From a virus: a stretch of 64,000 nt of DNA. Positions 7,932 through 53,655 of this stretch are shown here, piece after piece. The stretch is taken from positions 124,001 to 188,000 of the IMG/VR virus record IMGVR_UViG_3300011934_000017; one strand, written 5' to 3'. How positions within the stretch are numbered: the first letter of the stretch is position 1; each line of letters starts with the position of its first letter. The position numbers and the translations under genes are program-made. Below the pieces are notes generated by a model. That model was not told the origin of the DNA and ran no database searches. It saw nothing but the letters and a program-made list of their open reading frames with translations.

Positions 7932-7997
7932 ATAAAACCTCCAGGTTGTCTCTCAAATTACAGAAGCAAAACGCCCTTAAAGTCGAGACATACTAGC

Positions 7998-8006
7998 TAT
8001 TTACGC
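7998..8006 (-). promoter_or_regulatory. Late-type promoter variant GCGTAAATA
   Basis: Minus-strand GCGTAAATA, 67 bases before the SWIM-protein gene. It is a one-base variant of GTGTAAATA and overlaps the stop of the upstream gene. Confidence 0.35.
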
Positions 8007-8668
8007 TATTTGGTTTCAGATTCTTTTTCCACCAAACTGAGAAATTGTAGAATAGAGTCTCTGGACCAGTTGTCAAATGTTTTTCCTACGACCGTTCCAT
8101 CGTACTTGGTTTTTGGATCTAACTTGAACCAGAGAACTTCAATAAGCTCGTCCGTTTCTAAAAGGTCTTCATCTTCTCCTAGAAATTTCGAAGAAGGTCT
8201 TGTGTCTGATCTAACAGTTTCTTCGTGGAAGAGATTGCGCCAGCTTTTAGGTTCTGACTCTTCGAACACCATTTGCTGGCCGGTGTGTTCTACAAGCTTA
8301 GCTTTCGGTCCAATGATGTTACTCATATTTTCCATGATACGGGAAAACACCAGTAAATCCATAGAACTGAAATCATCATCTTTGATGCTGAGTGTGAAAG
8401 TTGCTAGCTTTGCAGTTTCCATCTTGCTCTCCTTAGAATATGGGGATTCTGGTTCAGGAATAGGAGTCTCAACAACATCGAGAATTTTAGACATAAAAAG
8501 CTCGTCCTGTTCACCGTGCAACCAAAGGTGAGAGTCTTCCTCTAGTTCCTCATGAAACGGCTCATAGAACCACTCTAATAAAACCCACTTCTTGAAAGGC
8601 TTTCTATGATTCATAGAGGTCAGTACCCAGTACCAACCTGGCTTTCTATTTTTGTCGTTTGTGTTCAT
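8006..8668 (-). CDS. Hypothetical protein
   Basis: 220 residues, acidic in the middle, beginning with an aromatic-rich segment (NRKPGWYWVL, KKWVLLEWFYEP). No known motif. GAGGTT lies before the ATG. It overlaps the stop of the NADAR gene by 23 bases, so the two are translationally linked. No function assigned. Confidence 0.6.
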   Translation of the reverse strand: MNTNDKNRKPGWYWVLTSMNHRKPFKKWVLLEWFYEPFHEELEEDSHLWLHGEQDELFMSKILDVVETPIPEPESPYSKESKMETAKLATFTLSIKDDDFSSMDLLVFSRIMENMSNIIGPKAKLVEHTGQQMVFEESEPKSWRNLFHEETVRSDTRPSSKFLGEDEDLLETDELIEVLWFKLDPKTKYDGTVVGKTFDNWSRDSILQFLSLVEKESETK

Positions 8669-36508: not shown

Positions 36509-37087
36509 CTTTGGACTAGATTCGAAGTGGTTTAGGAAAGAGTTTAGTCTGTTAGGTCCTTCCAAACATTCAAATGGTTCTAAGTCAAAATGCTTGCAAG
36601 CATGATAGATTCCCATAAGCGAACAGTCCAGTTCGTGCACCGTTTTTCTTTCAGCTTTTGGCAGAGGTTTTACCAGCTCTTTGAGTTCATCGTAAAGCTC
36701 ATTCAGAGGTTTAACGTCTTCCTCTTTGAACCTTCGGTTGAAGCTGTTCTTCCAGGTCGATGCGGTGTACAGATGGAGTTGCGGGTACAAAGTCACAAGA
36801 ATACCGAGCATCATGTTGATGGACTCTATGGTAATTCCTTTGAGACCTCTTGATTGAAAGCGTTCAGCAACAACCAAATCAAAAGGACCGAACTCGCTTT
36901 CCAGACTAAGAATTTCTGCCATGAAGCTGCGATACTCGTTACGAATCGTAGCAGGGTTTTTAATCGTGTCGTAAACAAGCTTGGTTCCCATAACGCGAAT
37001 TTTTAAGCGGGAGCTTGATGCGAGTTTAATAACGGATGCGGCGTAGTTTGTGGTGCCGGGGTCCATTGAGAGTACAGTTATTGTCAT
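36503..37087 (-). CDS. RuvC-like resolvase/nuclease
   Basis: 194 residues from the ATG at 37087 (GGAGGG 5 bases upstream; a longer frame to 37144 has no good site). RNase H fold: SMDPGTTNYA (first Asp), LVVAERFQSRG (Glu), and HELDCSLMGIYHA (final acidic helix). Likely resolves branched DNA such as Holliday junctions before packaging. Confidence 0.85.
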   Translation of the reverse strand: MTITVLSMDPGTTNYAASVIKLASSSRLKIRVMGTKLVYDTIKNPATIRNEYRSFMAEILSLESEFGPFDLVVAERFQSRGLKGITIESINMMLGILVTLYPQLHLYTASTWKNSFNRRFKEEDVKPLNELYDELKELVKPLPKAERKTVHELDCSLMGIYHACKHFDLEPFECLEGPNRLNSFLNHFESSPKL

Positions 37088-37172
37088 GGGGACCCTCCAT
37101 AGGTATATAGCGCAAATTACTAAACGAAGGTCTGATAATTTCAATTACATGCTAGAGTCTCAGGAGAATGAC

Positions 37173-38327
37173 ATGGCTAGAATACGCAGAGGTACGGGAG
37201 GCAAGCTCCGTAAAAATGCAAAGAACTTTACGCACAAACAAGCGCAAGCACGTTTGCAAGAAACGGTAGCACCCTTTAACAAACAGGTAGATAACTCGCT
37301 ACGAGTAAATGCTGTAGAGATTGATTATTACCAGACACAAAACAAAATAGGCAGACCATGTACTTGCGACAAGATACAAATATATGATGAACAAAAGACG
37401 CGAGACGGTGGCAGCAATTCAAATCATATAGAACCAGTTGTACCTACCGTAGACGAAGACAGTAGCTCAAGATTAGATATTGAGCTTCAGGACGACAATC
37501 TGTTTGGTGATGGGCCTGCTGAAAAGCTGTACGGTGAAAACGTATATGATGTTAGTGGTTCCGACAATCTGAAAGACGACGATATTCCTGACGAAATATA
37601 TCGAAACATGTTGGCAGGCGAAGGCGACGTAGCCATGTCTGAAACCTCCATGTTCGGTTCAAATGCTAACTGTGGAATATGCTATCGTGTAGGTTTCCAG
37701 CCGGGGTACAAGTCATACGGCAAACAGCGTACATTGTTGACCACGTGGGACATTAAAGACATAAGCAGTTATAATGTTGTCACGACCGAGACACCTAATA
37801 AGATGCGGCGTCAAGGCCCCAAAACAGACTACACGTTTGTTGAGTTCACCTTGTTCGTTCCGAAGTATTTCAAGTCTTGTATTTTCAGCATTCGAAACAA
37901 CACACAGATTCTACAAGGTGAGCGGATTCGAGCGTTTAACCAACCGCTGACTTTGAAAACGTTGAAAGACAATGCAGGCAAAGAAATTGTGGTTCGAGTG
38001 GATGCGTTGGAGTTCACGCATATTGTTGTCGAGTTTGATCTAGGTGTTCAAAAGACATATGCCAATCTAGGACCAGAAAGCCAAGCGCTTGACTATTCCA
38101 AGATGGATGCGCTTTCAAACTTTCCTTTAGTTCTTCCTCCTTCTATTCACGAGGTCAATACAGGTGATGTTATAGTCATCAAAGACCGAAAACTGGTACT
38201 AAAAATCATAGACCTGGAGAGAAAGATAACAGCAGATAAGAGGCAATTAGAATGGACAGTTCAAACTCGACTAATCCAAAAAACAGAACCCTTGAGAGAC
38301 ATTGCGAAGGGCATGAAGATTCTGTAG
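37173..38327 (+). CDS. Probable virion protein
   Basis: 384 residues from the ATG at 37173 (CAGGAG upstream). A very basic N-terminus (MARIRRGTGGKLRKNAK), a linker with CTCDK, an acidic Asn/Asp stretch (about 95-150), then a beta-rich domain starting at NCGICYRVGFQPGY. This order with the neighbouring protease and the gene at 39739 looks like a structural block, but no family is certain. Overlaps the protease gene by 76 bases. Confidence 0.55.
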   Translation: MARIRRGTGGKLRKNAKNFTHKQAQARLQETVAPFNKQVDNSLRVNAVEIDYYQTQNKIGRPCTCDKIQIYDEQKTRDGGSNSNHIEPVVPTVDEDSSSRLDIELQDDNLFGDGPAEKLYGENVYDVSGSDNLKDDDIPDEIYRNMLAGEGDVAMSETSMFGSNANCGICYRVGFQPGYKSYGKQRTLLTTWDIKDISSYNVVTTETPNKMRRQGPKTDYTFVEFTLFVPKYFKSCIFSIRNNTQILQGERIRAFNQPLTLKTLKDNAGKEIVVRVDALEFTHIVVEFDLGVQKTYANLGPESQALDYSKMDALSNFPLVLPPSIHEVNTGDVIVIKDRKLVLKIIDLERKITADKRQLEWTVQTRLIQKTEPLRDIAKGMKIL

Positions 38328-39742
38328 GAAGAAAGAATTACATTGTCACCGTAAAAAGAAATGTCGTCAAAGAAGACGTGCTGGATGAATTACAGCGCCC
38401 AGAATGCGGATGCGTCCATCGAAGCGTCGAAGTAACCGACTTCCAATCGTTGAGCAGAAGGAATTTCACAGTAGCTTTGACTGTGGAAGAGCGGGATATC
38501 CTGAGAGAAAGCGACAATGTGGTTGATGTTGTTTTGGAAGAAGGCTTCAATAGAATGAAGCCTGTGCTTGAAGAGCAACTGATTAATCCTGCTTTTGAGA
38601 ATAGCGCTTCAAGCACCCACGACAACTGGGCTCTGGATCATTGTGCGTTTCGAAACGGATACAAGTACATTTACTCGCACACCGGAAAGAACGTAGACAT
38701 AATCTTCATTGACTCAGGTGTGGACCCTAATCACTCTGAGTTCGAACAGAACGGTGTATCCAGAGTCCGCGTTATTGAATGGGAAGCTGGACAGTTCAGC
38801 ACTAAGCCAGATCAATACGTAGACACGGAGGGTCATGGGACTGGTGTGTCTAGCTGTGGTGTAGGCAAAAGACAAGGCTTCGCAAAAGACAGTGACATAT
38901 ATAGCATAAAGATTTTTGATAATGATGCCTACAGCCCGTTAAAAGCGTTGCAGCTTGCGCGTACTTGGCACAATCAAAAGACGAACGGTCGTCCTACCAT
39001 AGTGAACAATAGCTGGGGATATTCAGCGGAGTATCCACCTGGGCATCCTAAAGCAGGACAAAAGCATCCTGTTCAAGTAGCTGTGATAGATGCTGAAATC
39101 GAATCCATGATAGACGCGGGCATTATAGTAGTAAGCGCAGCAGGAAATGAAAATCACCACGTAGCCGCAGAAGGCACTGCCGAATACGATGATTTTTACT
39201 ACACAGACAGCAGCGGTAACTACACCGAAATTATGGAGGATGCTGCATACTTTGATAGGAACAATCGATACACGCCGGGCGGTTCTGCCGAGACGATATG
39301 CGTTGGTTCAATAGGTGAGTTCTATCCTACTTCCAGATTCATAAGGTCATGGTTTTCTAATTTTGGAAGTAGGGTAGACATATTTGCTCCAGGACGTGTG
39401 ATTCAGTGTGCTCAGTCCTTAACAACAAACGATCTAAAGAAAACCAATGGTACTTCTTTTTCTTCCGGCATTCTGAGCGGTATAATTGCGCTTTGGTTAG
39501 AGATAAACCCGACTGCGAATCAAATGGATGTTAGAAAATGGCTGAGTAGGCATGCCTTTTCAAGCGAGGTCGTAGGCAGTTTAGAAGGTGCAGAAAATCA
39601 AACAGCCAGAGTATTGTTCAACGGTGTCAGAGCAGCTAAAGACACTCCTCATACAATACTGTTGAAGCAAGGTAATCAATGGTATCCAGTACAACATATA
39701 ACCAGCAATAAACGAGCCGTATATGGCAGGAGAATTTCATGA
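38252..39742 (+). CDS. Subtilisin-like (S8) serine protease
   Basis: 496 residues. Catalytic triad motifs: IIFIDSGVDPNHSEFE (Asp about 153), TEGHGTGVSSCG (His about 194), NGTSFSSGILSG (Ser about 400). IVNNSWGYS and VVSAAGNE (oxyanion Asn) are also present. No signal peptide, so it acts in the cytoplasm or in the virion. The first 120 residues resemble an inhibitor-like propeptide (VTVKRNVVKEDVLDELQ...LTVEERDILRESDNVVDVV). In a virion block it could be a maturation or host-cleaving protease. AGAGG before the ATG; the start overlaps the upstream gene. Confidence 0.93.
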   Translation: MDSSNSTNPKNRTLERHCEGHEDSVGRKNYIVTVKRNVVKEDVLDELQRPECGCVHRSVEVTDFQSLSRRNFTVALTVEERDILRESDNVVDVVLEEGFNRMKPVLEEQLINPAFENSASSTHDNWALDHCAFRNGYKYIYSHTGKNVDIIFIDSGVDPNHSEFEQNGVSRVRVIEWEAGQFSTKPDQYVDTEGHGTGVSSCGVGKRQGFAKDSDIYSIKIFDNDAYSPLKALQLARTWHNQKTNGRPTIVNNSWGYSAEYPPGHPKAGQKHPVQVAVIDAEIESMIDAGIIVVSAAGNENHHVAAEGTAEYDDFYYTDSSGNYTEIMEDAAYFDRNNRYTPGGSAETICVGSIGEFYPTSRFIRSWFSNFGSRVDIFAPGRVIQCAQSLTTNDLKKTNGTSFSSGILSGIIALWLEINPTANQMDVRKWLSRHAFSSEVVGSLEGAENQTARVLFNGVRAAKDTPHTILLKQGNQWYPVQHITSNKRAVYGRRIS

Positions 39743-40356
39743 ACGACAAGAGCCTAGAAATTTCAAAGAACATGGTAGTATTAGCACGTCGTCGCAAAGG
39801 TAAAGGAAAGAAGCGTGGTTCAGCGCGTAGCCAGATGCTAAAGATGGTCATGCCTATGCTTTCCCGTGAACATGGAGAGAAACTAGCAGAAGCTATCGAA
39901 CACAATAACGTAAGTCTGCTACGCCGCACATGGGATTCAATTAAACATGATCTATCGGAAAAGCTGGCGAATGAAGCTACTGCCAGCGACTTTGCTTCTG
40001 AAGTCCAAGAAATCTTTGATAAAGTCTTTAAAGACCTTGAAGAAGAGTTTCTTTCACAATCAGCGTCTAAGAACAGAGGACGTTTGTTAACAGGCACCGC
40101 GCGTATTCCCTCTTTGACTCGTGATCTAATTGCAGATGGTTATGTTGAATTTACCGATGCAAAAAATAACGTCTATACTGTGACTATCACGCAGCTTGGT
40201 GTTAAGAAAGTTGGAAATCCTCAACCAATAATCTATGCAGGCGCTTTAATTACCTCTGATTCCGGAATGAAAGAAGGTATATCTGCTTCTGGAATTTATG
40301 CTGACGTTTGTTCGGAGATTATTATTTCTGCTATGTCGCTGTCAGAAAACGATTAA
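39739..40356 (+). CDS. Hypothetical protein, probably structural
   Basis: 205 residues, ATGA overlap with the protease stop, AGGAG upstream. A basic segment (ARRRKGKGKKRGSARSQ), a helical middle and a beta C-terminus (YVEFTDAKNNVYTVTI). Unrecognised; coupled to the protease, so a substrate or partner is possible. Confidence 0.55.
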   Translation: MNDKSLEISKNMVVLARRRKGKGKKRGSARSQMLKMVMPMLSREHGEKLAEAIEHNNVSLLRRTWDSIKHDLSEKLANEATASDFASEVQEIFDKVFKDLEEEFLSQSASKNRGRLLTGTARIPSLTRDLIADGYVEFTDAKNNVYTVTITQLGVKKVGNPQPIIYAGALITSDSGMKEGISASGIYADVCSEIIISAMSLSEND

Positions 40357-40371
40357 ACCTACCGAAACCTC

Positions 40372-40400
40372 TAAAAAGGGCGGCAAATGCTGCCTTTTTT
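40372..40400 (+). terminator. Terminator closing the protease block
   Basis: GGCA-AATGC-TGCC flanked by AAAAAG and TTTTTT, 15 bases past the stop at 40356. Confidence 0.85.
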
Positions 40401-41367
40401 CGTGTCTGAAGCGTGACGCTGAAACATCAAATGTAACAGAGTGTTAACCATGCAAAAGCACTCTACAGGGCTGTTTGAAAGCATTGGGGGCGTCATCCAT
40501 GCAAAACCAATGCTTTTGCATGTCTGTAAGCAAAATACCTTGTTACAATTCGTTACAAAAAAGTTTTGTGTGGAAGAAATGCGTTTTTAGACCGTTTGGA
40601 GCCTCTGTCCTGTTAAAAAACGTCAAAATATCAACCTTGTTTTTTAGACGCCTTAAAATCAGGCTAAAAATCACTCATTTTTAACGATTTCCTCAAAACC
40701 AAAAAGTGTCAATACGCAGTATTGGCGCAGATTGCGTTGAGCAGCAAAGCGTGAAGAGCTAAGCGAGGCGCAGCCGAGCATTAGCGATGATGCTTGAGTA
40801 ATGCCTCAGCAAACAAGAGACGCTAGGCGGCGCGAACACTTAGAGCCCGTCTCGTCCAGAAGCGTTGAGCGCAGCGAATAAGCGAAGGGGTTCCAAGCGA
40901 AGCGTTAAGCGTTCCAAGCGCTGCGAGGCAGCGCGATAGCAACGAGCGTAGCGAGTTGCTTAAAAGAACCTATCCTACGCGATCCTACGACTGATTCATT
41001 TAAAGAACGTTAAGCAATTAAAAATTGCATTCTTTTGGATCATGTTAAAACAGGCCGAACTCTGTCTTTGCTAAGACCATAGCAGACCTTAAAACAAGGT
41101 GAATTAATAGGACGTGTGGAATTAAATGAGCCAGTCGTAGGACTGCGTAGTGTTGTATAATGTTAAAGGTCCAACTCGCTACGCTCGTCGTCCCTAACGC
41201 TGCTTCGCAGCGTTTCTCTAATCCTTTCCGCTTCGCGGTACCGCGGGCTAACGCCCGCTCTCGCTCACTTCGTTCGCTCACCTTAAAAAACCTAATTTGT
41301 CAGTTCAAAAATCAAAGTCTTTTCAAGACAAACTTTTTAAATGAAAAACTTTTGTTGCGCGCTTTAA
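40401..41367. other. About 1 kb hairpin-rich non-coding region
   Basis: No credible gene. 40448-40522 holds three overlapping inverted repeats (ATGCAAAAGCA/TGCTTTTGCAT, AAAGCATTGG/CCAATGCTTT, CATGCAAAA/TTTTGCATG) sharing one right arm. 40726-40960 is filled with AGCG-type words (aagcgaagcg, gcagcgcga) and hairpins such as GCAAC...GTTGC at 40939-40959. 41174-41280 has dense short hairpins: AACGCTGC-TTC-GCAGCGTT (41196-41214), CCGC-TTC-GCGG (41228-41238), GCGGGC-TAAC-GCCCGC (41243-41258), and tcgctcacttcgttcgctca. Base composition is unlike the flanks. Candidate replication origin, recombination hotspot or remains of inserted DNA; not decided by sequence alone. Confidence 0.7.
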
Positions 41368-41376
41368 GTGTAAATA
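41368..41376 (+). promoter_or_regulatory. Late-type promoter GTGTAAATA before the modification island
   Basis: Exact consensus, 33 bases before the methyltransferase-like gene's ATG. Confidence 0.65.
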
Positions 41377-41409
41377 TTGAACAGATTATATGGAAAACCG
41401 GAGATTACG

Positions 41410-42885
41410 ATGGGAAAACAGTTACCCGAAGAGCTAAGGTATCAGCTTCTTGTTTTCGACTATAAGAAAGCTAACAAGGCACGCAAGCTCTGGAAAAAAC
41501 GTAAAGGAGATAAGGATAAAGAAGCCCATAAAAAGTTTTGCTATGGATTAGGAGCAAAGCTAGACGTTTCTCCGAAAGTAGTTAGCTTCATCGTCAAAAA
41601 CAATAAATGGGCAGATCAAAAGCCCGCAGAGCATGTAAAATCATTACCAACAGGCCTTCAAGAATACGATAAACCTTCTTTGAAGCCTGAAGCCTTAGTC
41701 AGAGGAAGAGAATTATACATATCTCCTAAAAACTGGCGCAGGCTCAACGAGCATTACACCAAAGGAAAAATAAAGAAAGCTATTGTTCGCGCTGTTAGAA
41801 AGCTAGATTTACCTGCACCTGTTCAACCTATAAGCCAAGAGCAAGCAGATGATAGCTTTCGAGCACTGAAAAAGTTGCGTTCTGACAGCATGATAAAACG
41901 TATGCCTACCTGCACACGGTGGGATTATAAATACGGTATTTCCGACGTTGTTATTGACGCACCTCGAACAGGAAACGAATGCTCAAACTTTTATCATCAG
42001 GAGTCACGTTGGTGGTGCGACTATCAGAGTATTCCGTCACCGATGAAAGTATGGAATTCTGATCTTCACATGTATTCCATGATGAATGCTTTATGGACGT
42101 TGAAGTTTAAGAAGATTACAGGACCAGAGCTTCGCACAGCTATAAGTGTCCGTAAATATGTGGCTAGTCAGTTTAAACCTTCTGCCGCCAAAGCGTTTTA
42201 CGAGCTATTTGACTGCAAGCACGTTTACGATCCTTCCAGTGGCTGGGGAGACCGTCTAGCAGGCTTCATGGCAGCTAAATGCACCAAGTCCTATTGCTCT
42301 ACGGATCCCAACAGCAGACTGTACGACGACTATGAATTGCAGAAAAATCGGTACGGTGGAAAGAAAGAAATAAACATGTACTGTCACGGTAGTGAAATCA
42401 AAGGTGGTGTTCGCAAGATGTACGGACACAGAGTTGATACTGTCTTTACTTCGCCTCCTTATTTCAATGCCGAACGCTACAGCGAAGACGAAGGCCAAAG
42501 CTTTAGGCAGTTTGATGAAATAAGTGCGTGGCGTGAAAATTTCCTGTTTCCTTCTTTGAAAAATGCGTGGAATGCTTTGACTTCAGAAGGTGAACGCGGT
42601 GGCATTCTAGCAATCAATATTTCGGACATATACAACTCTTCGGATAAAACTCGCGGTGAGATATGCGACCCTATGAACGATTACATATCTTCGCTGAAAG
42701 GTGCTCGATACATCGGTTGTATTGGTTTGCGTCTAGCTAAACGTCCTGAGAGCGGTGCACTTGAAGGTAAACAAGGTGCAAGTATCGAACCTATCTGGGT
42801 CTGGGCTAAAGGTGGCTCTTGGGAGCTAGACGATTATATAGATAACGGATTTAAGACTAAGAAAGTAAAAGGTCTTTGGGGATAA
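41410..42885 (+). CDS. DNA methyltransferase-fold enzyme with SPPY motif
   Basis: 491 residues from the ATG at 41410 (GGAG 7 bases upstream). Motif I is YDPSSGWGDRLAGFMA near residue 275 and motif IV is TVFTSPPYFN near 347. The order I then IV and the S-P-P-Y sequence fit amino-methyltransferases (N4-cytosine or N6-adenine). GGILAINISDIY after it fits the next core strand. The first 230 residues have no known domain: a basic helical segment that may bind DNA. It heads an island with a TS-like, a PLP and a PP-loop enzyme (2 bases to the next gene), so it may modify the phage base itself or transfer a group other than methyl; that is inference. Confidence 0.8.
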   Translation: MGKQLPEELRYQLLVFDYKKANKARKLWKKRKGDKDKEAHKKFCYGLGAKLDVSPKVVSFIVKNNKWADQKPAEHVKSLPTGLQEYDKPSLKPEALVRGRELYISPKNWRRLNEHYTKGKIKKAIVRAVRKLDLPAPVQPISQEQADDSFRALKKLRSDSMIKRMPTCTRWDYKYGISDVVIDAPRTGNECSNFYHQESRWWCDYQSIPSPMKVWNSDLHMYSMMNALWTLKFKKITGPELRTAISVRKYVASQFKPSAAKAFYELFDCKHVYDPSSGWGDRLAGFMAAKCTKSYCSTDPNSRLYDDYELQKNRYGGKKEINMYCHGSEIKGGVRKMYGHRVDTVFTSPPYFNAERYSEDEGQSFRQFDEISAWRENFLFPSLKNAWNALTSEGERGGILAINISDIYNSSDKTRGEICDPMNDYISSLKGARYIGCIGLRLAKRPESGALEGKQGASIEPIWVWAKGGSWELDDYIDNGFKTKKVKGLWG

Positions 42886-42886
42886 T

Positions 42887-43597
42887 ATGGCACATATCAT
42901 TGAAGCAAACAGTATCGACAGTCTTTGGTATCGTACTATGAATACCTTACTGACTGAAGGCGATAAGATTAGCGGTATTCAAGAAATTCCTAATCTGATC
43001 TTGGTTCTTAAAAAGAATTTTCGATCCTCTGAGTTTTTCGATAAAGAGTTTCGTCGTATTTTTGGAGACGAACGAATAGACTTTGCATCTTCTGTAACGT
43101 TTGTTCCTCCGAAAGAAGGCATGGTAAGTCCTTCATACGAACAGAATGAGCCCAAAGCTAAGTGGACGAAAACTTACTGGGGTCGTATGATCAGTTTTGA
43201 CGGAAGTGTTAATCAGATTGAGGAAGCAATCAAAAAGCTTTCTAAAGGTAAGAATACCAAGATGATTTCTATAGGTATTTATGCGCCTTCTTCCGATCAT
43301 CGCAAAGTCATGGGTGGTGTGCCTTGTATGACTGCTATCGATATAAAGCCTAGAAATGGAAAGATTGATCTATCTGTTTTCATGAGGTCTATGCGATTCT
43401 CTAAGTCGGGTTATGGAGACGTTCATGCCTTGTGTGAACTAGGTAAATATATCTGTGAGCGCTCTAACATGGAAATGAACAGCCTCACCATGTTTGCGAC
43501 CTCTGGACACACTTTTTACTCTGGTGAAGAGTTTACAAACTGTAAAGCTCTTATGGAATCAATGAAAGAACGCAAAGCAGAGAAGGTAAGAATATGA
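42887..43597 (+). CDS. Divergent thymidylate-synthase/dCMP-hydroxymethylase-like enzyme
   Basis: 236 residues, close to T4 dCMP hydroxymethylase (246). The C-terminal 100 residues align without gaps to E. coli thymidylate synthase: GVPCMTAID (active Cys146), 20 residues to VFMRSM (Arg166, Ser167), 11 more to GYGDV, then 30 to the SGH His207. Three sites differ: Asp169 is Arg, Tyr209 is Phe, and Asn177, which reads the pyrimidine, is Asp. N177D is the change that makes hydroxymethylases prefer cytosine. The N-terminal part keeps a Q-I-E-E-A-I-x-x-L segment but loses the S-R-R phosphate loop. It may act on a cytosine nucleotide, or on DNA. Confidence 0.75.
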   Translation: MAHIIEANSIDSLWYRTMNTLLTEGDKISGIQEIPNLILVLKKNFRSSEFFDKEFRRIFGDERIDFASSVTFVPPKEGMVSPSYEQNEPKAKWTKTYWGRMISFDGSVNQIEEAIKKLSKGKNTKMISIGIYAPSSDHRKVMGGVPCMTAIDIKPRNGKIDLSVFMRSMRFSKSGYGDVHALCELGKYICERSNMEMNSLTMFATSGHTFYSGEEFTNCKALMESMKERKAEKVRI

Positions 43598-44409
43598 AGC
43601 TCAGCCTTAATAATCCAGTTGAAACCCATCGTATTGGCAAATACGAAGTCTTTGTCAAGCGTGATGATATGATGGGTGATAATAAAATTCTTCCACCTTG
43701 GGGAAAGATGGACGCCATTGATAGTATTCTTCAAAGAATGGATCTTAGCGTACCTCTTATACAACTGAATGTCTTTGGTTCTTGGAGTGGTTGGGCACTC
43801 GCACGTCTCGCTAAAAAGTATGATTGCGAAGTACATGTGGTTCATCCTAAGACGAAGAAAATCACTGACGACTATATAGGTGTGATGGAAGAAGCAGGTG
43901 CTATCATTCATCCTATTCGACATAATATGATGCGCGTTTTGTACGCTCAGACGAACAACAGGGCGAAAGAAGAAGGTATGAGAATGCTGCCGTATGCATT
44001 CAACACACCGAAATATCTAAACGCTATGGCAAGACGTTTACGCGCTACTTTAGAAGAGCTGGGTCCCATAGATAACTTGGTGGTAAGCTCTGGTAGTGGT
44101 GTGACTGTTACGGGACTGTCTAAACCTTTTCTTGATCTAAATCCTAAAGGTCAAGTCTACACTGTTTGCGTTTCGTCCGAAAATTCGATTCGTAAAACGT
44201 TTAACAGTCGTGAAGTCAGCACTGATCCTGTTCACATTATCAAGTCACCGTATGAGTTTGGTGATACGATGCCTAAAGTTGAAGTTCCTTTCTCTTGTAA
44301 TCAGTTTTGGGATAAGAAAGCTTGGCATTGGTTGACGGAGAACAAGAGCATTCTTAAAGGTAAGCGTACACTGTTCTGGAATCTAGGTGGTGAGTATACA
44401 TTTTTGTGA
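43594..44409 (+). CDS. PLP-dependent enzyme, ACC-deaminase/D-cysteine-desulfhydrase-like
   Basis: 271 residues, a little shorter than family members (about 330). Motifs: FVKRDDMMGDN near 20-30 followed by PPWGKMDAI, where the family has G-G-N-K-x-R-K; the Lys in WGKM is the likely PLP-binding one. LNVFGSWSGWALARLAKKYDC matches the S-N-H-x-x-x-x-A-A-A segment, and VVSSGSGVTVTGLS the glycine-rich PLP-phosphate loop. Fold type II enzymes deaminate or beta-replace amino acids. Here it may supply or attach an amino-acid-derived group. Overlaps the TS-like gene by 4 bases. Confidence 0.7.
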   Translation: MKLSLNNPVETHRIGKYEVFVKRDDMMGDNKILPPWGKMDAIDSILQRMDLSVPLIQLNVFGSWSGWALARLAKKYDCEVHVVHPKTKKITDDYIGVMEEAGAIIHPIRHNMMRVLYAQTNNRAKEEGMRMLPYAFNTPKYLNAMARRLRATLEELGPIDNLVVSSGSGVTVTGLSKPFLDLNPKGQVYTVCVSSENSIRKTFNSREVSTDPVHIIKSPYEFGDTMPKVEVPFSCNQFWDKKAWHWLTENKSILKGKRTLFWNLGGEYTFL

Positions 44410-44420
44410 GGATTGAATAA

Positions 44421-45263
44421 ATGGGCAAGCCGAAAGTTAAAGAATGTTTGATACGTAACCTGGAAAGATATGACGGACCTTTTGCTGTTCTTCTGTCGGG
44501 TGGTGCAGACAGTCACGCTAATCTTTTCGCATTACTTGAGATGGGCGCAGACGTACACGTATATAGCTGCACCTTAGAAGACAGGGAAAGCAGGGATTTT
44601 ATTTGTGCTCGCAGGACTGCTGAAATCTTTGATCTACCTTTCACACCTGTTATTTTACCTACAGACCTCGACCAGCTCCTTGTAGATATTCGAGAGAACA
44701 TGAGTCTTATCGGAACAAAAGGCAAGGTAGAGGTAGAAGCTTTATGGGCGTTTCGTAAAGCCGTTGATATTATAACAGAACCTAGTATCGTCAGCGGTCT
44801 GTCAGCAGGTATGTATTTTTGTTTGACCAAGAAAGGCAGCATACACTACGCACATACAGGAAGAATCGACGAATATCGTAGAGAGACATTTAAAAGAGCC
44901 TCTAATCCTAATAATCAAGGGGCCAAGATGAAACGATATTCGAAAAGCGTTGGAAAGAAGTGGATAAATCCTTGGATAACCCGAGGAATGCTAAAGACGT
45001 TCTTAGGAACTACATGGGAAGATGTAAATAAACCACGACAAAAAGAAGCGATCCGCGCAGACTTTGAAAAATACTTTGCAAAAACCAAAGTGTTTAATCA
45101 ACGAGACATGCACAAAGGTGATAGCGGTATGTCTGAGCTATTCGCTAAATTGTTGGAAGACCCTAAGGTAAATGTTAGGAATCATAAATCTGTTGTTGGT
45201 ATCTACAATATGATACGAGCAGAAGAGCTGGCCAGAGTAAATAAAGGCCCTGGCTTGTTCTAG
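44421..45263 (+). CDS. Asparagine-synthetase-like PP-loop ATP pyrophosphatase
   Basis: 280 residues. The PP-loop AVLLSGGADSHAN (about 23-35) is followed by the E-D-R-E-S-x-D-F-x-x-A-R-x-T-A-E-I-F-D-L segment typical of the asparagine synthetase C-domain, and NKPRQKEAIRADFEKYF near 220-240 fits its end. There is no glutaminase domain, so ammonia would come from elsewhere, possibly from the neighbouring PLP enzyme. Such enzymes adenylate a carboxyl or carbonyl group and replace AMP with an amine or sulphur. GAGGA before the ATG. Confidence 0.8.
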   Translation: MGKPKVKECLIRNLERYDGPFAVLLSGGADSHANLFALLEMGADVHVYSCTLEDRESRDFICARRTAEIFDLPFTPVILPTDLDQLLVDIRENMSLIGTKGKVEVEALWAFRKAVDIITEPSIVSGLSAGMYFCLTKKGSIHYAHTGRIDEYRRETFKRASNPNNQGAKMKRYSKSVGKKWINPWITRGMLKTFLGTTWEDVNKPRQKEAIRADFEKYFAKTKVFNQRDMHKGDSGMSELFAKLLEDPKVNVRNHKSVVGIYNMIRAEELARVNKGPGLF

Positions 45264-47768: not shown

Positions 47769-48914
47769 ATGGCTAAGAAAGCAAAAGCAGCACCAATTGA
47801 GACAACTACTAGCGGTGCACTGGCTGTAAAATACAGACCTGCAAAACTGAAAGACTTGTCTGGTCAACCACATATCACTACTCAGCTAAAAGGCATGTTC
47901 AAGTCTCGAAAAGTACCTGGCGCTTTTTTGATTGAAGGTCAAACAGGCGGCGGTAAGACGACTCTAGCGCGTATCATTCATAGGTACTTGAACTGCGAGA
48001 AAGGTACGGCTTGCGGTAAATGTGAGTCATGCCGTATTGACCCTAAGAACCATCCTGATCTTGTTGCTATAAACGCAGGTACTGATGGTAAAGTAGACGA
48101 CATTCGAAAGCTTGTCAAAGGTGCGCGTGTTGCTCCTTACCACAACAAACGTATTATCCTGATCGACGAGGCACATAAGCTAACAGGTGCTGCGGCAGAA
48201 GCTTTGCTGGTACCTTTGGAAGAACCAAGTCGTGATACCATCTGGATTTTGTGTACAACGAATCCTGAAAAGATGCTACCTACGATGATCAATCGTTGTG
48301 TGCATTTCACAATGAAGCCAGTCGAGCACCAAGATATCGTTAGTCGCCTTACTTTCATTGCAGAGAAAGAGAAAGTAGATTTAAGCGGGGAAGACGGTCA
48401 AGAAGCTTTGAGCCTGATCGCTGACTTTTCCAACGGCAGTATGCGTCATGCTGTAGCGCTTCTGGAGTCTGTGCTTTATGCTGTCGCTGGCGGTGCAGAT
48501 ATCAGTAACAAAGAGGTACTGTCGGCGTTTATTCAAAACTCCGAAGTTGATTTAGACAAGGCTGCCGTCAGTCTAGTCGCTGCACTAATGAATAATGATC
48601 TTAAAGGTGCTATTCGCTTTGTACGTAAAGCAGGTAACACACGCGGTCTTGTAAGCAAGTCACGTTGGTTAATTGACTACTGTATAGGCGCTAAGACTAA
48701 GACAGCCAAGTTCAAGCCGTACTCCGGTCGATTGTTTGAGAAGCTGGTCTCCGACAAAGGTATTGACGTTCGATTGGATGCTTTGCTGTTGCTTCAGATG
48801 ACCATTGTCGATGCTGAAATGAAGATGAATAGCACGTCCATCGATGAATCCGTTATTCTCCAAACAGCTATCGCCAAATACGCCTTCGATAATGTTGAGG
48901 AAGAGGAAGAGTAA
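47769..48914 (+). CDS. DNA polymerase clamp-loader large subunit (DnaX/gp44-like)
   Basis: 381 residues from the ATG at 47769 (GGAG upstream). AAA+ motifs: VKYRPAKLKDLSGQ, Walker A GQTGGGKTT (57-65), Cys-rich zinc site at C76, C82, C85, C88 as in bacterial DnaX rather than T4 gp44, DEAH (RIILIDEAHKL), sensor 1 TTNPEKMLP and the SRC-like NRCVHF. It loads the sliding clamp onto primer ends. Coupled to the SbcC-like gene by an ATGA overlap. Confidence 0.93.
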   Translation: MAKKAKAAPIETTTSGALAVKYRPAKLKDLSGQPHITTQLKGMFKSRKVPGAFLIEGQTGGGKTTLARIIHRYLNCEKGTACGKCESCRIDPKNHPDLVAINAGTDGKVDDIRKLVKGARVAPYHNKRIILIDEAHKLTGAAAEALLVPLEEPSRDTIWILCTTNPEKMLPTMINRCVHFTMKPVEHQDIVSRLTFIAEKEKVDLSGEDGQEALSLIADFSNGSMRHAVALLESVLYAVAGGADISNKEVLSAFIQNSEVDLDKAAVSLVAALMNNDLKGAIRFVRKAGNTRGLVSKSRWLIDYCIGAKTKTAKFKPYSGRLFEKLVSDKGIDVRLDALLLLQMTIVDAEMKMNSTSIDESVILQTAIAKYAFDNVEEEEE

Positions 48915-51292
48915 TGATAGAAGTCGATTCCTTTATTCTCCGAAATATCGTCTACTTCAACGAAGCCAAAGTTCCTGTACGTAAGAATAATGGTTTCGTT
49001 ATCATTTCTGGTCTAAACAAAGACAGTCGTATTGCAGAAGATCAAAACAACGGTGCAGGTAAGTCATTGCTTTGGTCGGCGTTTCCTAACGCATTGTACG
49101 CGGCTGCTCCTTCTAGCACAGCTAAGAACACAAAGAAGGACATGCTGGACAGTTCTAAGTCTGAGATTGAAATACGTTTTAAGAACAACAGGCAGCAGAA
49201 GGTAAAGGTAGTTCAAAAGCCTTCTAAGTGGCTAGTGTACGAAGAAGAACCTGATGGTTCCCTGAAAGATATCAAGTCACACCGCGTATCTAATCAGCAA
49301 GAAAAAATAGCAGAACACTTTCCTCTTTCACAGGACGAGTTCTATGCTTACACATACCTATCCAGTATTCAAGGCCAGCGCCTGCACTTTCAAGTAGAAA
49401 AGCCTGCTGAACGCCTTAAGTTTATCACTTCTATTTTTCAGTTAGATGCTTATGACAAGCTGAAGAAATATTTTACCAACATGCTTGGTAGAATCAAGGA
49501 TGAACAGACTAGGTTCTCCGTTCTTGAGTCGAAGCTTTTAAACGCTAACGTCCAGCTTGAAAGAATCCAATGGACTGAAGAATCAGTAGAGAAAGCCAAG
49601 AGAGCCAAGGAAAGCTTTGCTGATCTAAAAGTGAGGCGTGATAGTATAGCAAGAAGCGTTTCTAAAGGTGAGACACGAGTAGGTCAAATAAAGTCTTTGG
49701 TTCGTCTGCTAGAAAAGAAAGAAGCGTTAGGTATTCCAGAAGATACCGATGTTGACGATATGAAAGCCAAGCTTTGTGTACGGATGAAAATCATTCGAGA
49801 CTATGAAGCTTACCTCAAGGAGCTAAAATCGTACCAAAAGCGTGTGTCTAAAATCGAAGAGGCTTTGGAAGAACTCAACACCAAAGACTTGACCGATAAA
49901 AAGACGTTGAACAAAAAGCTTCCTAAGCTTCACAGTAAAGCAGAAGATTTGGTTGCTGATATTGAAAGGGCGCGGGAAAGCGAACGTAAAAGAAGCAGGC
50001 TTGCCGATAAAGTAAAAGAGTGCCGTAAAGAACTCAAAAGCTTAGGCTTCTCCTCTGCTGATGACGTTGATACAGATACCGATTTGGACGATGATATTTC
50101 TATCTGTCGTACCACACTCCAGTTAAAGAAGCTTTTAGACTCCAGCTCCGACTCTACTTGTCCTACCTGTATGCAGTCAGTAGACCTGAAGTCCATCAAG
50201 ACCAGTGTTAAGAAAGCAGAAAAGCGTCTGAAGAAACTGGAGACATTGAACAAGGCACGGCGTGTTCTTACCGAGCTGCAAGACTTTGAAACAGAGCTAG
50301 AGTCTGTGGAGAAAGTTGATTCTGTCGATAGTCTAAAAGAAACATTGAATGATACCAAATCGAAAATTCAAGCTGCCGAGAAAGAACTCAAATTGCACGG
50401 TCGCTTGCAAGAATTAAAAGAACAGCTTGCGGAAGAGGAAGAACCTAAGGCACCTAAAAAGACGCCACCTAAAAACGCCTCCATAGATGACATAGATGAA
50501 AAGCTGGCGCTGTTGAATGAGTTTGCCAAGATCGACCATTCTATCGAAGTGTTGATCGACGGTAGTAGCTTTTTGCTAAAGGCTTCCAAGAGTCCTGAGA
50601 AAGCATTGTCTAAGACCAAGATACAGTTAGATGATCTTTCGGCACAACTGGCTAAGCTTGATGCCGCCTATAAGATGGTGTCTAAACTTGTTAGTGAGTA
50701 CGACCTGCGTCTCGGCGAATACAGGGTTCTTTCAAAACAGAAGATTGAGCTGGAAGCCGAGTTAGAAGAGATTAAACCTATTCTTGAAAAGAGGGACCTG
50801 TACAAAGCACTAGAAAAAGCGTATAGCGCAAAAGGCTTGAAAGTATCTAAGGCTAATGAGATTGTACGTCTATTGGAAGCCAACCTGAATCGTTACTCTA
50901 ATCTGATCTTTGCAGAACCATTTACGTTCAAAGTATACGCGACTGAGCAAGGTGTCTTTTGCGACGTAGACCGAAACTCTGGTAAAGATTCTGATGTGCG
51001 CCTGCTTTCCGGCTCCGAGTCTGATAGTTTCCGTCTGCTGTTTATGCTAAGTCTATTACTTATGGTTCCGTCAGATCGCCGTACAAACTTCGTGGTGTTA
51101 GATGAACCTGAGTCACACATGGATCCCAGAACGCGCAATCTGTTTGCAGAGCGTTACATTCCTTTTCTACGCGAAGTAGTTCCACACCTATTCTTGATTA
51201 CTCCACAAGACCATCATATCTATAGTGACTTTGATCATTGGACTGTCGAGAAAGCTAACGGTGTTTCTACTCTCAAAATCAATTCACTGTAA
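48914..51292 (+). CDS. SbcC/Rad50-like (gp46-like) recombination ATPase
   Basis: 792 residues. Walker A NNGAGKS (about 45-51), long coiled coils, zinc hook STCPTCMQS (about 415), ABC signature LLSGSESDSF (about 697), Walker B FVVLDEPESHMDP (about 725). T4 gp46 is 560, so the coiled coils are longer here. With the SbcD-like protein at 52591 it forms the end-resection nuclease that starts recombination-dependent replication. Order in the operon: SbcC first, two or three small genes, then SbcD. Confidence 0.95.
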   Translation: MIEVDSFILRNIVYFNEAKVPVRKNNGFVIISGLNKDSRIAEDQNNGAGKSLLWSAFPNALYAAAPSSTAKNTKKDMLDSSKSEIEIRFKNNRQQKVKVVQKPSKWLVYEEEPDGSLKDIKSHRVSNQQEKIAEHFPLSQDEFYAYTYLSSIQGQRLHFQVEKPAERLKFITSIFQLDAYDKLKKYFTNMLGRIKDEQTRFSVLESKLLNANVQLERIQWTEESVEKAKRAKESFADLKVRRDSIARSVSKGETRVGQIKSLVRLLEKKEALGIPEDTDVDDMKAKLCVRMKIIRDYEAYLKELKSYQKRVSKIEEALEELNTKDLTDKKTLNKKLPKLHSKAEDLVADIERARESERKRSRLADKVKECRKELKSLGFSSADDVDTDTDLDDDISICRTTLQLKKLLDSSSDSTCPTCMQSVDLKSIKTSVKKAEKRLKKLETLNKARRVLTELQDFETELESVEKVDSVDSLKETLNDTKSKIQAAEKELKLHGRLQELKEQLAEEEEPKAPKKTPPKNASIDDIDEKLALLNEFAKIDHSIEVLIDGSSFLLKASKSPEKALSKTKIQLDDLSAQLAKLDAAYKMVSKLVSEYDLRLGEYRVLSKQKIELEAELEEIKPILEKRDLYKALEKAYSAKGLKVSKANEIVRLLEANLNRYSNLIFAEPFTFKVYATEQGVFCDVDRNSGKDSDVRLLSGSESDSFRLLFMLSLLLMVPSDRRTNFVVLDEPESHMDPRTRNLFAERYIPFLREVVPHLFLITPQDHHIYSDFDHWTVEKANGVSTLKINSL

Positions 51293-52418: not shown

Positions 52419-52604
52419 ATGCCTAAAAATTGCTGTAACGAATCGCTTGCTCTTGTATCGGTATACGATGCTCCTGAATCGGGCTATGCGTATAATCTGT
52501 TTGTCTGCCAGTCTTGCGGCACCATAATCAAAGAAGATGTTTGGAGCAATTCAGGCACCTTGACAGTAAAGACAAACGGTGAGGTAGTACATGAGCGTTC
52601 TTGA
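52419..52604 (+). CDS. Small zinc-knuckle protein
   Basis: 61 residues with NCCNE near the start and VCQSCGTII (CxxC) in the middle, enough for a small zinc site. AAGGAG before the ATG. Overlaps the SbcD start by 14 bases. Confidence 0.6.
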   Translation: MPKNCCNESLALVSVYDAPESGYAYNLFVCQSCGTIIKEDVWSNSGTLTVKTNGEVVHERS

Positions 52605-53655
52605 GGGTATTGCAACTGCGGACTGGCATTTTGGTGGACTAGCTAAGCACTTTCCAGATCACGTTCAACGGACCATATACGAAATAGACAAGGTATATCG
52701 GTACGCTATAGAGAACGGTATTCAACACGTATTTATGCCGGGTGATGTTAGCGATACACCACACATGCCTTACGAAGTGTATATCGCGCTTGTCCTGTTC
52801 CTTAAGAAATACGACGGTCTGATTAATACCTATTACATTCCTGGCAATCACGATTTTTCAGACGTTAAGAAAACAAGCATGGACCTTCTTAACGTTCTTT
52901 ACCAAAATCAGTTCTTCGAGACATTCCATCTACATCTACAGTACAAAGAAGATGAAATTGATGGGGTGCCTATTAATTTCCTTCCTTATCCTATGAAAGA
53001 AGCGCCTGCTTCTAATATTCCTCACCTAAATTTCTCTCACATAACATATAACGGCGCCATTGGTGATAACGGACGCAAGCTTAGGGTAAACGACGAGTTT
53101 ATACAGAATCCCGGTGATTTTAATATAAGTGGGCATATTCACCAGTACCAGTATATGAAGTCTAAGCGAGCCGTTTATTGTGGTAATCCATTTCAGAAAA
53201 ACTTTGGAGAGAAACTGCCAAAAGGCTCCATTCATTTCAAAGCTTCTGGTGGAAAAGAGAAGATTGGATTTAAGCACAAATTTGTAGACAACAAACCTGA
53301 CTTCAAGCTTCTTAACATCAAGATAGAAAGCAGGGATGACTTTGCAAAACTATCTACATCCGATGCTTATCGCTACAAACTATGGATAGCTCCGGGTATC
53401 GAACTTCCCAAAGACTTGCGTGTTCGCTTCCCTAACATAACAGGTGGCATTTTCGATCTTGAGTCCAAGGTAAAAACAAAAGAGATTGAAGCCGCTAGAG
53501 ATTTGGCTACGGGTTCTGTTTCGAACAGAGTAGACCTTACTTCTGGTCTTAAAACTTATATGAAGAAATCTGGCTTCAAAAAGAGAGAATACCAAGAAGC
53601 CAAGTCTATAGTCAAGCAAGCCGCCAACGAACTCGGTTTAGATTTAGGAGAATGA
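52591..53655 (+). CDS. SbcD/Mre11-like (gp47-like) nuclease
   Basis: 354 residues, near the length of T4 gp47 (339). Metallophosphoesterase motifs: TADWHFGG (Asp, His), MPGDVSDT, IPGNHDFSD, HITYNG, and ISGHIHQYQY. Two-metal nuclease acting on DNA ends with the SbcC-like ATPase. Starts inside the previous gene. Confidence 0.95.
   Translation: MSVLEGIATADWHFGGLAKHFPDHVQRTIYEIDKVYRYAIENGIQHVFMPGDVSDTPHMPYEVYIALVLFLKKYDGLINTYYIPGNHDFSDVKKTSMDLLNVLYQNQFFETFHLHLQYKEDEIDGVPINFLPYPMKEAPASNIPHLNFSHITYNGAIGDNGRKLRVNDEFIQNPGDFNISGHIHQYQYMKSKRAVYCGNPFQKNFGEKLPKGSIHFKASGGKEKIGFKHKFVDNKPDFKLLNIKIESRDDFAKLSTSDAYRYKLWIAPGIELPKDLRVRFPNITGGIFDLESKVKTKEIEAARDLATGSVSNRVDLTSGLKTYMKKSGFKKREYQEAKSIVKQAANELGLDLGE

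Follow-up and report, generated by a model that had tools for sequence, protein, structure and literature searches.

What is the function of a 1-kb stretch without genes in the genome of a jumbo phage? The DNA analysed here (the window, 64,000 nucleotides) is G000:C1:124001-188000 of a virus record of 220,237 bases, and this record is a jumbo phage that is kin to the Pseudomonas phages PaBG and Lu11 and the Erwinia phage Alexandra. The gap (40357-41409) is bounded by a stop codon at 40356 and by the start of the next gene, which is probably the ATG at 41410 rather than the listed TTG at 41377. The original prediction offered an origin of replication, a recombination-dependent start site and a scar of a modification island's arrival as explanations. 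Because the gap is the largest gene-free stretch, lies where gene direction flips and has counterparts in the same position in giant phages of this kin, we consider it the most likely origin; judging from sequence, it is probably the main bidirectional origin of DNA replication of this phage and its relatives.

The origins of the PaBG/Lu11/Alexandra group appear to be unmapped in the openly available literature. The PaBG paper mentions neither a replication origin nor skew nor any intergenic region, a 2026 jumbo-phage review does not mention replication origins, and for Aeromonas phage 332-Igor, which is also related, the positions given by Ori-Finder are of low reliability. If the proposed reading is true, an origin at the gap would be a landmark for genome orientation across the group, and the gap offers a 1-kb target that is testable in cultured relatives.

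Composition and parts of the gap

The claim that this is the largest non-coding stretch holds in the window and across the whole 220-kb record. When ORFs of at least 80 aa are considered, the longest gap is again this one, with 803 nt despite trimming by a spurious ORF, and the runner-up has 412 nt. Its sequence is unique within the record, its own two arms excepted. Its parts are, from left to right, a terminator, a 13-nt word in three copies, an A+T-rich segment, a 405-nt imperfect palindrome and a late-type promoter (Table 1). A base composition unlike that of the flanks had also been noted, and this is true locally and not on average: the mean GC content of 44.4% equals that of the genome, and within the gap the values are 33% (40540-40705), 57% (40733-40960), 60% (41170-41285) and 29% (41286-41409). 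Only 0.3% of the window's 160-nt stretches have a GC content as low as that of 40540-40705, which makes this segment a candidate for the A+T-rich unwinding element expected of an origin.

Table 1. Features in and around the gap, with positions in the window.
Feature	Position	Strand	Sequence or remark
phrog_21298 gene	37050-38327	+	conserved syntenic marker upstream of the gap
Terminator-like hairpin and T-run	40373-40402	+	GGGCGGCAAATGCTGCCTTTTTT, read directly; closes the upstream gene 39739-40356
13-nt word, two direct copies and one inverted	40448-40522		CCATGCAAAAGCA; iteron-like or protein-binding candidates
A+T-rich segment	40540-40705		33% GC; putative site of DNA unwinding
Tandem GTTACA, 10 nt apart	40542-40563		GTTACAATTCGTTACAAAAAAG; opens the A+T-rich segment
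Conserved left-border block	40692-40713		CTCAAAACCAAAAAGTGTCAAT; 22 nt identical in L114
Short hairpin, left edge of the hairpin field	40705-40728		GTGTCAATACGCAGTATTGGCGC; from folds
Long imperfect palindrome, 405 nt	40861-41265		arms 40861-41047 and 41080-41265; AGCG words left, CGCT right
Apex element (UCUG hairpin)	41052-41090	+	GGCCGAACTCT-GTCTT-TGCT-AAGAC-CAT
Late-type promoter motif	41368-41376	+	GTGTAAATA
First gene downstream of the gap	41410-42885	+	distant similarity to phage DNA methylases

The inverted repeats with a shared arm that had been noticed at 40448-40522 are present as two inverted pairs with a common arm and one direct pair. They are formed by CCATGCAAAAGCA (40448-40460), CCATGCAAAACCA (40497-40509) and the inverted copy TGCTTTTGCATG (40511-40522). 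With at most one mismatch, the word occurs three times in the 220-kb record, always inside the gap. The GTTACA tandem of the GTTACAATTCGTTACAAAAAAG type is the sole one of its kind in the genome and has a near copy in L114, the nearest relative. Among 2.9 million viral contigs, the CTCAAAACCAAAAAGTGTCAAT pattern matched a single one, which is L114.

The words AGCG and CGCT occur 27 times in the gap versus approximately 7 expected, and both the 200-nt stretch that is richest in these words genome-wide (15; mean 1.5, sd 1.3) and the next richest lie within it. The original prediction of dozens of such words forming short hairpins was correct with regard to the words; the hairpins are mainly parts of one palindrome, 40861-41265. 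The fold z of this palindrome is -10.1 on the plus strand and -8.2 on the minus strand, its arms include 29 nt at 86% complementarity and 17 nt at 100%, and its top symmetric helix scores 27, whereas shuffles reach at most 10. In most relatives' gaps the fold z is weak, about 0 to -4, compared with about -9 here. Because the palindrome is exceptional here and weak in most relatives, it is no more than a candidate for the working part. When the motif for the UCUG element at its apex is trained with this lineage left out, the element scores second in the whole genome; the corresponding leave-lineage-out ranks are 1 in Lu11 (good, as here), 88 in HRDY3 (moderate) and 350 in PaBG, for which the motif does not hold.

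The gap indeed lies between a terminator and a late-type promoter, with a hairpin and T-run before it and a late-type motif after it. A similar hairpin with a T-run opens most relatives' gaps. The motif GTGTAAATA occurs 16 times in the genome versus 2.7 expected, and the clade promoter motif AACTGTAAATA is enriched outside genes and is annotated in Lu11 as a putative middle/late promoter. A consensus scan for sigma-70 promoters and terminators scored no higher than shuffles.

The same gap in related phages

Homologues of the phrog_21298 protein are encoded by PaBG (43% identity), HRDY3, Lu11, NCTB, Erwinia Alexandra-type phages and Dickeya JA phages, and at 35 IMG/VR loci, among which L114 is the nearest (68%). 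A gap follows this gene and several small genes in PaBG, Lu11, HRDY3, Alexandra, JA11, Yoloswag, NCTB and further relatives from IMG/VR. Altogether, more than 20 relatives have a gap of 0.4-1.5 kb in this position, behind the same set of genes. The gap is non-coding and conserved in position, as is expected of an origin. In PaBG it occupies 116.15-117.63 kb. Its length is 1,477 nt in both PaBG and G001, 1,436 in L116, 1,343 in L114, 1,086 in L122, 862 in JA11, 759 in G002, 748 in Lu11, 712 in NCTB, 630 in HRDY3 and 497 in Alexandra. Replication genes stand on both flanks, the primase gene is 6 kb away, and the gene order from the primase to the gap is mostly preserved among the relatives.

The original prediction proposed looking for the repeats in mobile or origin sequences. 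A DNA search with the gap against phages and plasmids gave no match, and the kinship of the gaps is visible only through synteny. In L114 and the PaBG set, short blocks of identical sequence and a hairpin field rich in AGCG are retained. The sequence CACGAAGTTAnTTCG, which marks the left edge of the hairpin field, is common to PaBG, G001, L116, L118 and L122, and when 2.9 million viral contigs were searched with a longer CACGAAGTTAnTTCG pattern, only these five matched. Iteron-type repeats are present in several relatives' gaps.

Several observations concern individual relatives. The syntenic gap of NCTB (L019 8003-8579, L026 7744-7878) contains CCCTTCCGGGATAT three times at a spacing of ~49 nt, and this sequence is found nowhere else in its genome. 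In Alcaligenes phage Afa-NA1, the syntenic gap (L030 8993-9474) holds approximately eight spaced CAACTGATACATGAG-like repeats, an array of the iteron type. In L114, a 141-aa ORF is predicted on the minus strand inside the gap (7938-8363), left of the A+T-rich part. The annotated genes of Salmonella phage Sen-NF (L028, PV359490.1) abut with zero intergenic bases, and the record resembles concatenated coding sequences.

In this genome, JA11 and NCTB, genes lie mostly on the minus strand to the left of the gap and mostly on the plus strand to the right, for approximately 100 kb each way, and the switch itself is no more than a few kb away from the gap. The position at a gene-strand switch, as is expected of an origin, is clear in these three genomes and looser in PaBG and Lu11. 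The minimum of the cumulative GC skew lies 6.5-7.8 kb to the left of the gap in three genomes. For fourfold-degenerate sites, the GC skew and the TA skew were each modelled by regression on gene strand and a two-arm term, with both breakpoints scanned, 200 bootstraps over genes and two skews tried per genome. For one of the two skews, a best-fit strand-corrected breakpoint lies no more than about 5 kb from the gap in seven of the ten genomes (this genome, Lu11, HRDY3, JA11, NCTB, Alexandra and Yoloswag); a random breakpoint pair has a chance of about 8% to come as close as 5 kb. The median distance is 0.2 kb in HRDY3 (GC), and the distances are 2.7 kb in JA11 (TA; 10-90% range 0.6 to 4.3), -3.0 kb in Lu11 (GC), -3.8 kb in Alexandra (GC) and 0.6 to 3 kb in NCTB. 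In Yoloswag the best-fit TA breakpoint is at -0.4 to -0.8 kb with a wide bootstrap range.

In this phage, the best-fit TA breakpoint is at 0.8-2 kb (F 54-59) with a bootstrap range of 1.9 to 18.7 kb, and the test is fragile because gene strand and arm nearly coincide (22 minority genes), as they also do in NCTB. The GC skew alone is weak in this genome, and its term has a reversed sign here and in NCTB. An earlier one-sign fit of G and C only, which read these two genomes as reversed, was superseded by the use of both skews and both signs. The fit for G001, which would be an eighth genome, shifts between 4.5 and 8 kb. The breakpoint of PaBG is found only at about -9 to -9.7 kb, and in G003, the genome of L114 and thus the closest relative, the TA break is about +26-27 kb off and the GC break is nowhere clear. 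A skew break could also mirror the timing of transcription.

Proposed origin of replication and competing readings

Among the three explanations offered originally, an origin of replication has the strongest support: the gap is syntenic, the strand switch involves the whole genome, and strand-corrected skew breakpoints lie near in most genomes tested. At such an origin, the A+T-rich segment would melt, aided by a protein on the 13-nt words or by a transcript, and the long palindrome would extrude as a hairpin on the opened strands. The extruded palindrome may be the place where the helicase and primase of the phage itself are loaded or priming starts, and forks would exit both ways, co-directional with transcription on each side.

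In phage T4, oriF and oriG combine a middle promoter with an A+T-rich unwinding element and use R-loop priming, and three origins are located at strand and skew switches (PMC3016281). The gap is similar to the T4 origins in its position at a switch of transcription strand and, in most genomes tested, near a possible switch of base skew, in its promoter and A+T-rich segment (as in oriF and oriG) and in its iteron-type repeats (as in oriE). However, the minimal T4 origins measure ~100 bp, no long palindrome has been described in them, and T4 has several origins. Moreover, the promoter precedes the A+T-rich segment in T4 and comes after it here. The only promoter-type motif found in the gap is at 41368, beyond the A+T-rich segment and the palindrome, and no middle promoter was found in the gap directly upstream of the unwinding element, the arrangement of T4-type R-loop origins. 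Huge phages with a GC skew of bidirectional replication share with this group a two-armed skew with one switch point (PMC7162821). That work gives skew patterns and not a conserved origin element.

The hairpin priming sites of phages G4 and phiX174 are short G+C-rich hairpins (e.g., GCGAAGC) in a non-coding origin, and the gap likewise has short G+C-rich hairpins in a non-coding setting. However, G4 and phiX174 are single-stranded DNA phages, whereas here the palindrome is 405 nt long and the genome is double-stranded and 220 kb in size, and the likeness is without demonstrated sequence kinship. It is conceivable, although unlikely, that the gap represents a class of jumbo-phage origin not described before: its long imperfect palindrome would be conserved in place and style and not in sequence, and the conserved apex hairpin would start replication as RNA or as single-stranded DNA.

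The main alternative, although rather unlikely, is an RNA role: from a middle/late promoter of the phage, the hairpin field would be transcribed into a long structured RNA, which would be a free molecule or lead the operon downstream and would be recognised through the UCUG hairpin at its apex. ROOL and GOLLD are large structured RNAs of bacteria and phages that are non-coding, several hundred nucleotides long and highly folded. The gap is similar in these three respects, but a covariance-model search of it against Rfam gave no match at the gathering threshold or at a relaxed one. A promoter-type motif lies upstream of the field in Lu11, L119, L125 and L131, and also in HRDY3 and L117 when a looser motif is used, so the field would be transcribed in these phages; however, the promoter comes after the palindrome in this phage, PaBG, G001 and L114. 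The apex hairpin, present here and in the Lu11 set, is confined to one strand and varies with its pairing kept (GUCUU/AAGAC here; GUCUG/CAGAC, GUUUG/CAAAC and GUCCG/UGGAC), and the PaBG set has a second covarying hairpin (UUCAC/GUGAA, CUCAC/GUGAG and UUUGC/GCAAA). The pair counts of alignment A7 are biased because the 3′ halves were chosen by eye, 6-10% of all TCTGYY sites fit the same descriptor, and PaBG-type gaps are without that UCUG form. RNAalifold gave a weak consensus for the Lu11 group that did not recover the apex hairpin, and MAFFT aligned the apex elements of all phages poorly. The fold z is equally strong on the minus strand; by strand, 17 of 24 gaps favour the plus strand, with a small mean difference. 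The counts of G-T (G-U) and A-C mismatches are about equal, in an RNA/DNA test that was without power in an rRNA control. An RNA role of the hairpin field is thus possible and unproven, and it may hold together with a role as an origin.

It is quite unlikely that the gap is only a transcription divide, with a terminator, insulating hairpins and a promoter between two operons and without a role in replication. The terminator at one end and the late-type promoter at the other agree with such a divide, but it needs neither 1 kb nor shared blocks and repeats, and it predicts no skew breaks after correction for gene strand. A start site of DNA packaging (pac) is very improbable. Repeats and palindromes can serve as packaging signals and the gap contains both, but its neighbours are replication and repair genes and not packaging genes; searches for a terminase gene with phrog_2 and PF03237 gave no match.

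The modification island starts directly after the gap in this genome, but the proposal that the gap is a scar of the island's arrival is extremely improbable and is rejected, since L114 (ParB-like gene and C5 methylase) and PaBG (unrelated genes) keep the gap with other genes downstream and the modification genes of G001 are located elsewhere without a gap in front. Neither repeats shared with mobile DNA, in searches of phages and plasmids, nor an absence of the gap from island-less relatives was found. The genes downstream of the gap differ among these phages, being methylase-like and modification genes here, and therefore the gap belongs to the place and not to the island.

In this phage, methylase-like, thymidylate-synthase-like, PLP-enzyme and asparagine-synthase/QueC-like genes occupy 41410-45263 and, from their sequences, likely serve DNA base modification; a Pfam search with the first of them (41410-42885) returned no family. 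G001 carries the same modification genes at 173.7-187.2 kb. The neighbourhood of the gap includes replication and repair genes. With regard to a possible recombination-dependent start site, the third explanation offered originally, SbcCD and a Holliday junction resolvase are encoded nearby. The SbcC-like and SbcD-like proteins (48914-51292 and 52591-53655) are encoded 8-12 kb from the phage's own 405-nt palindrome, which such a palindrome-specific nuclease could attack.
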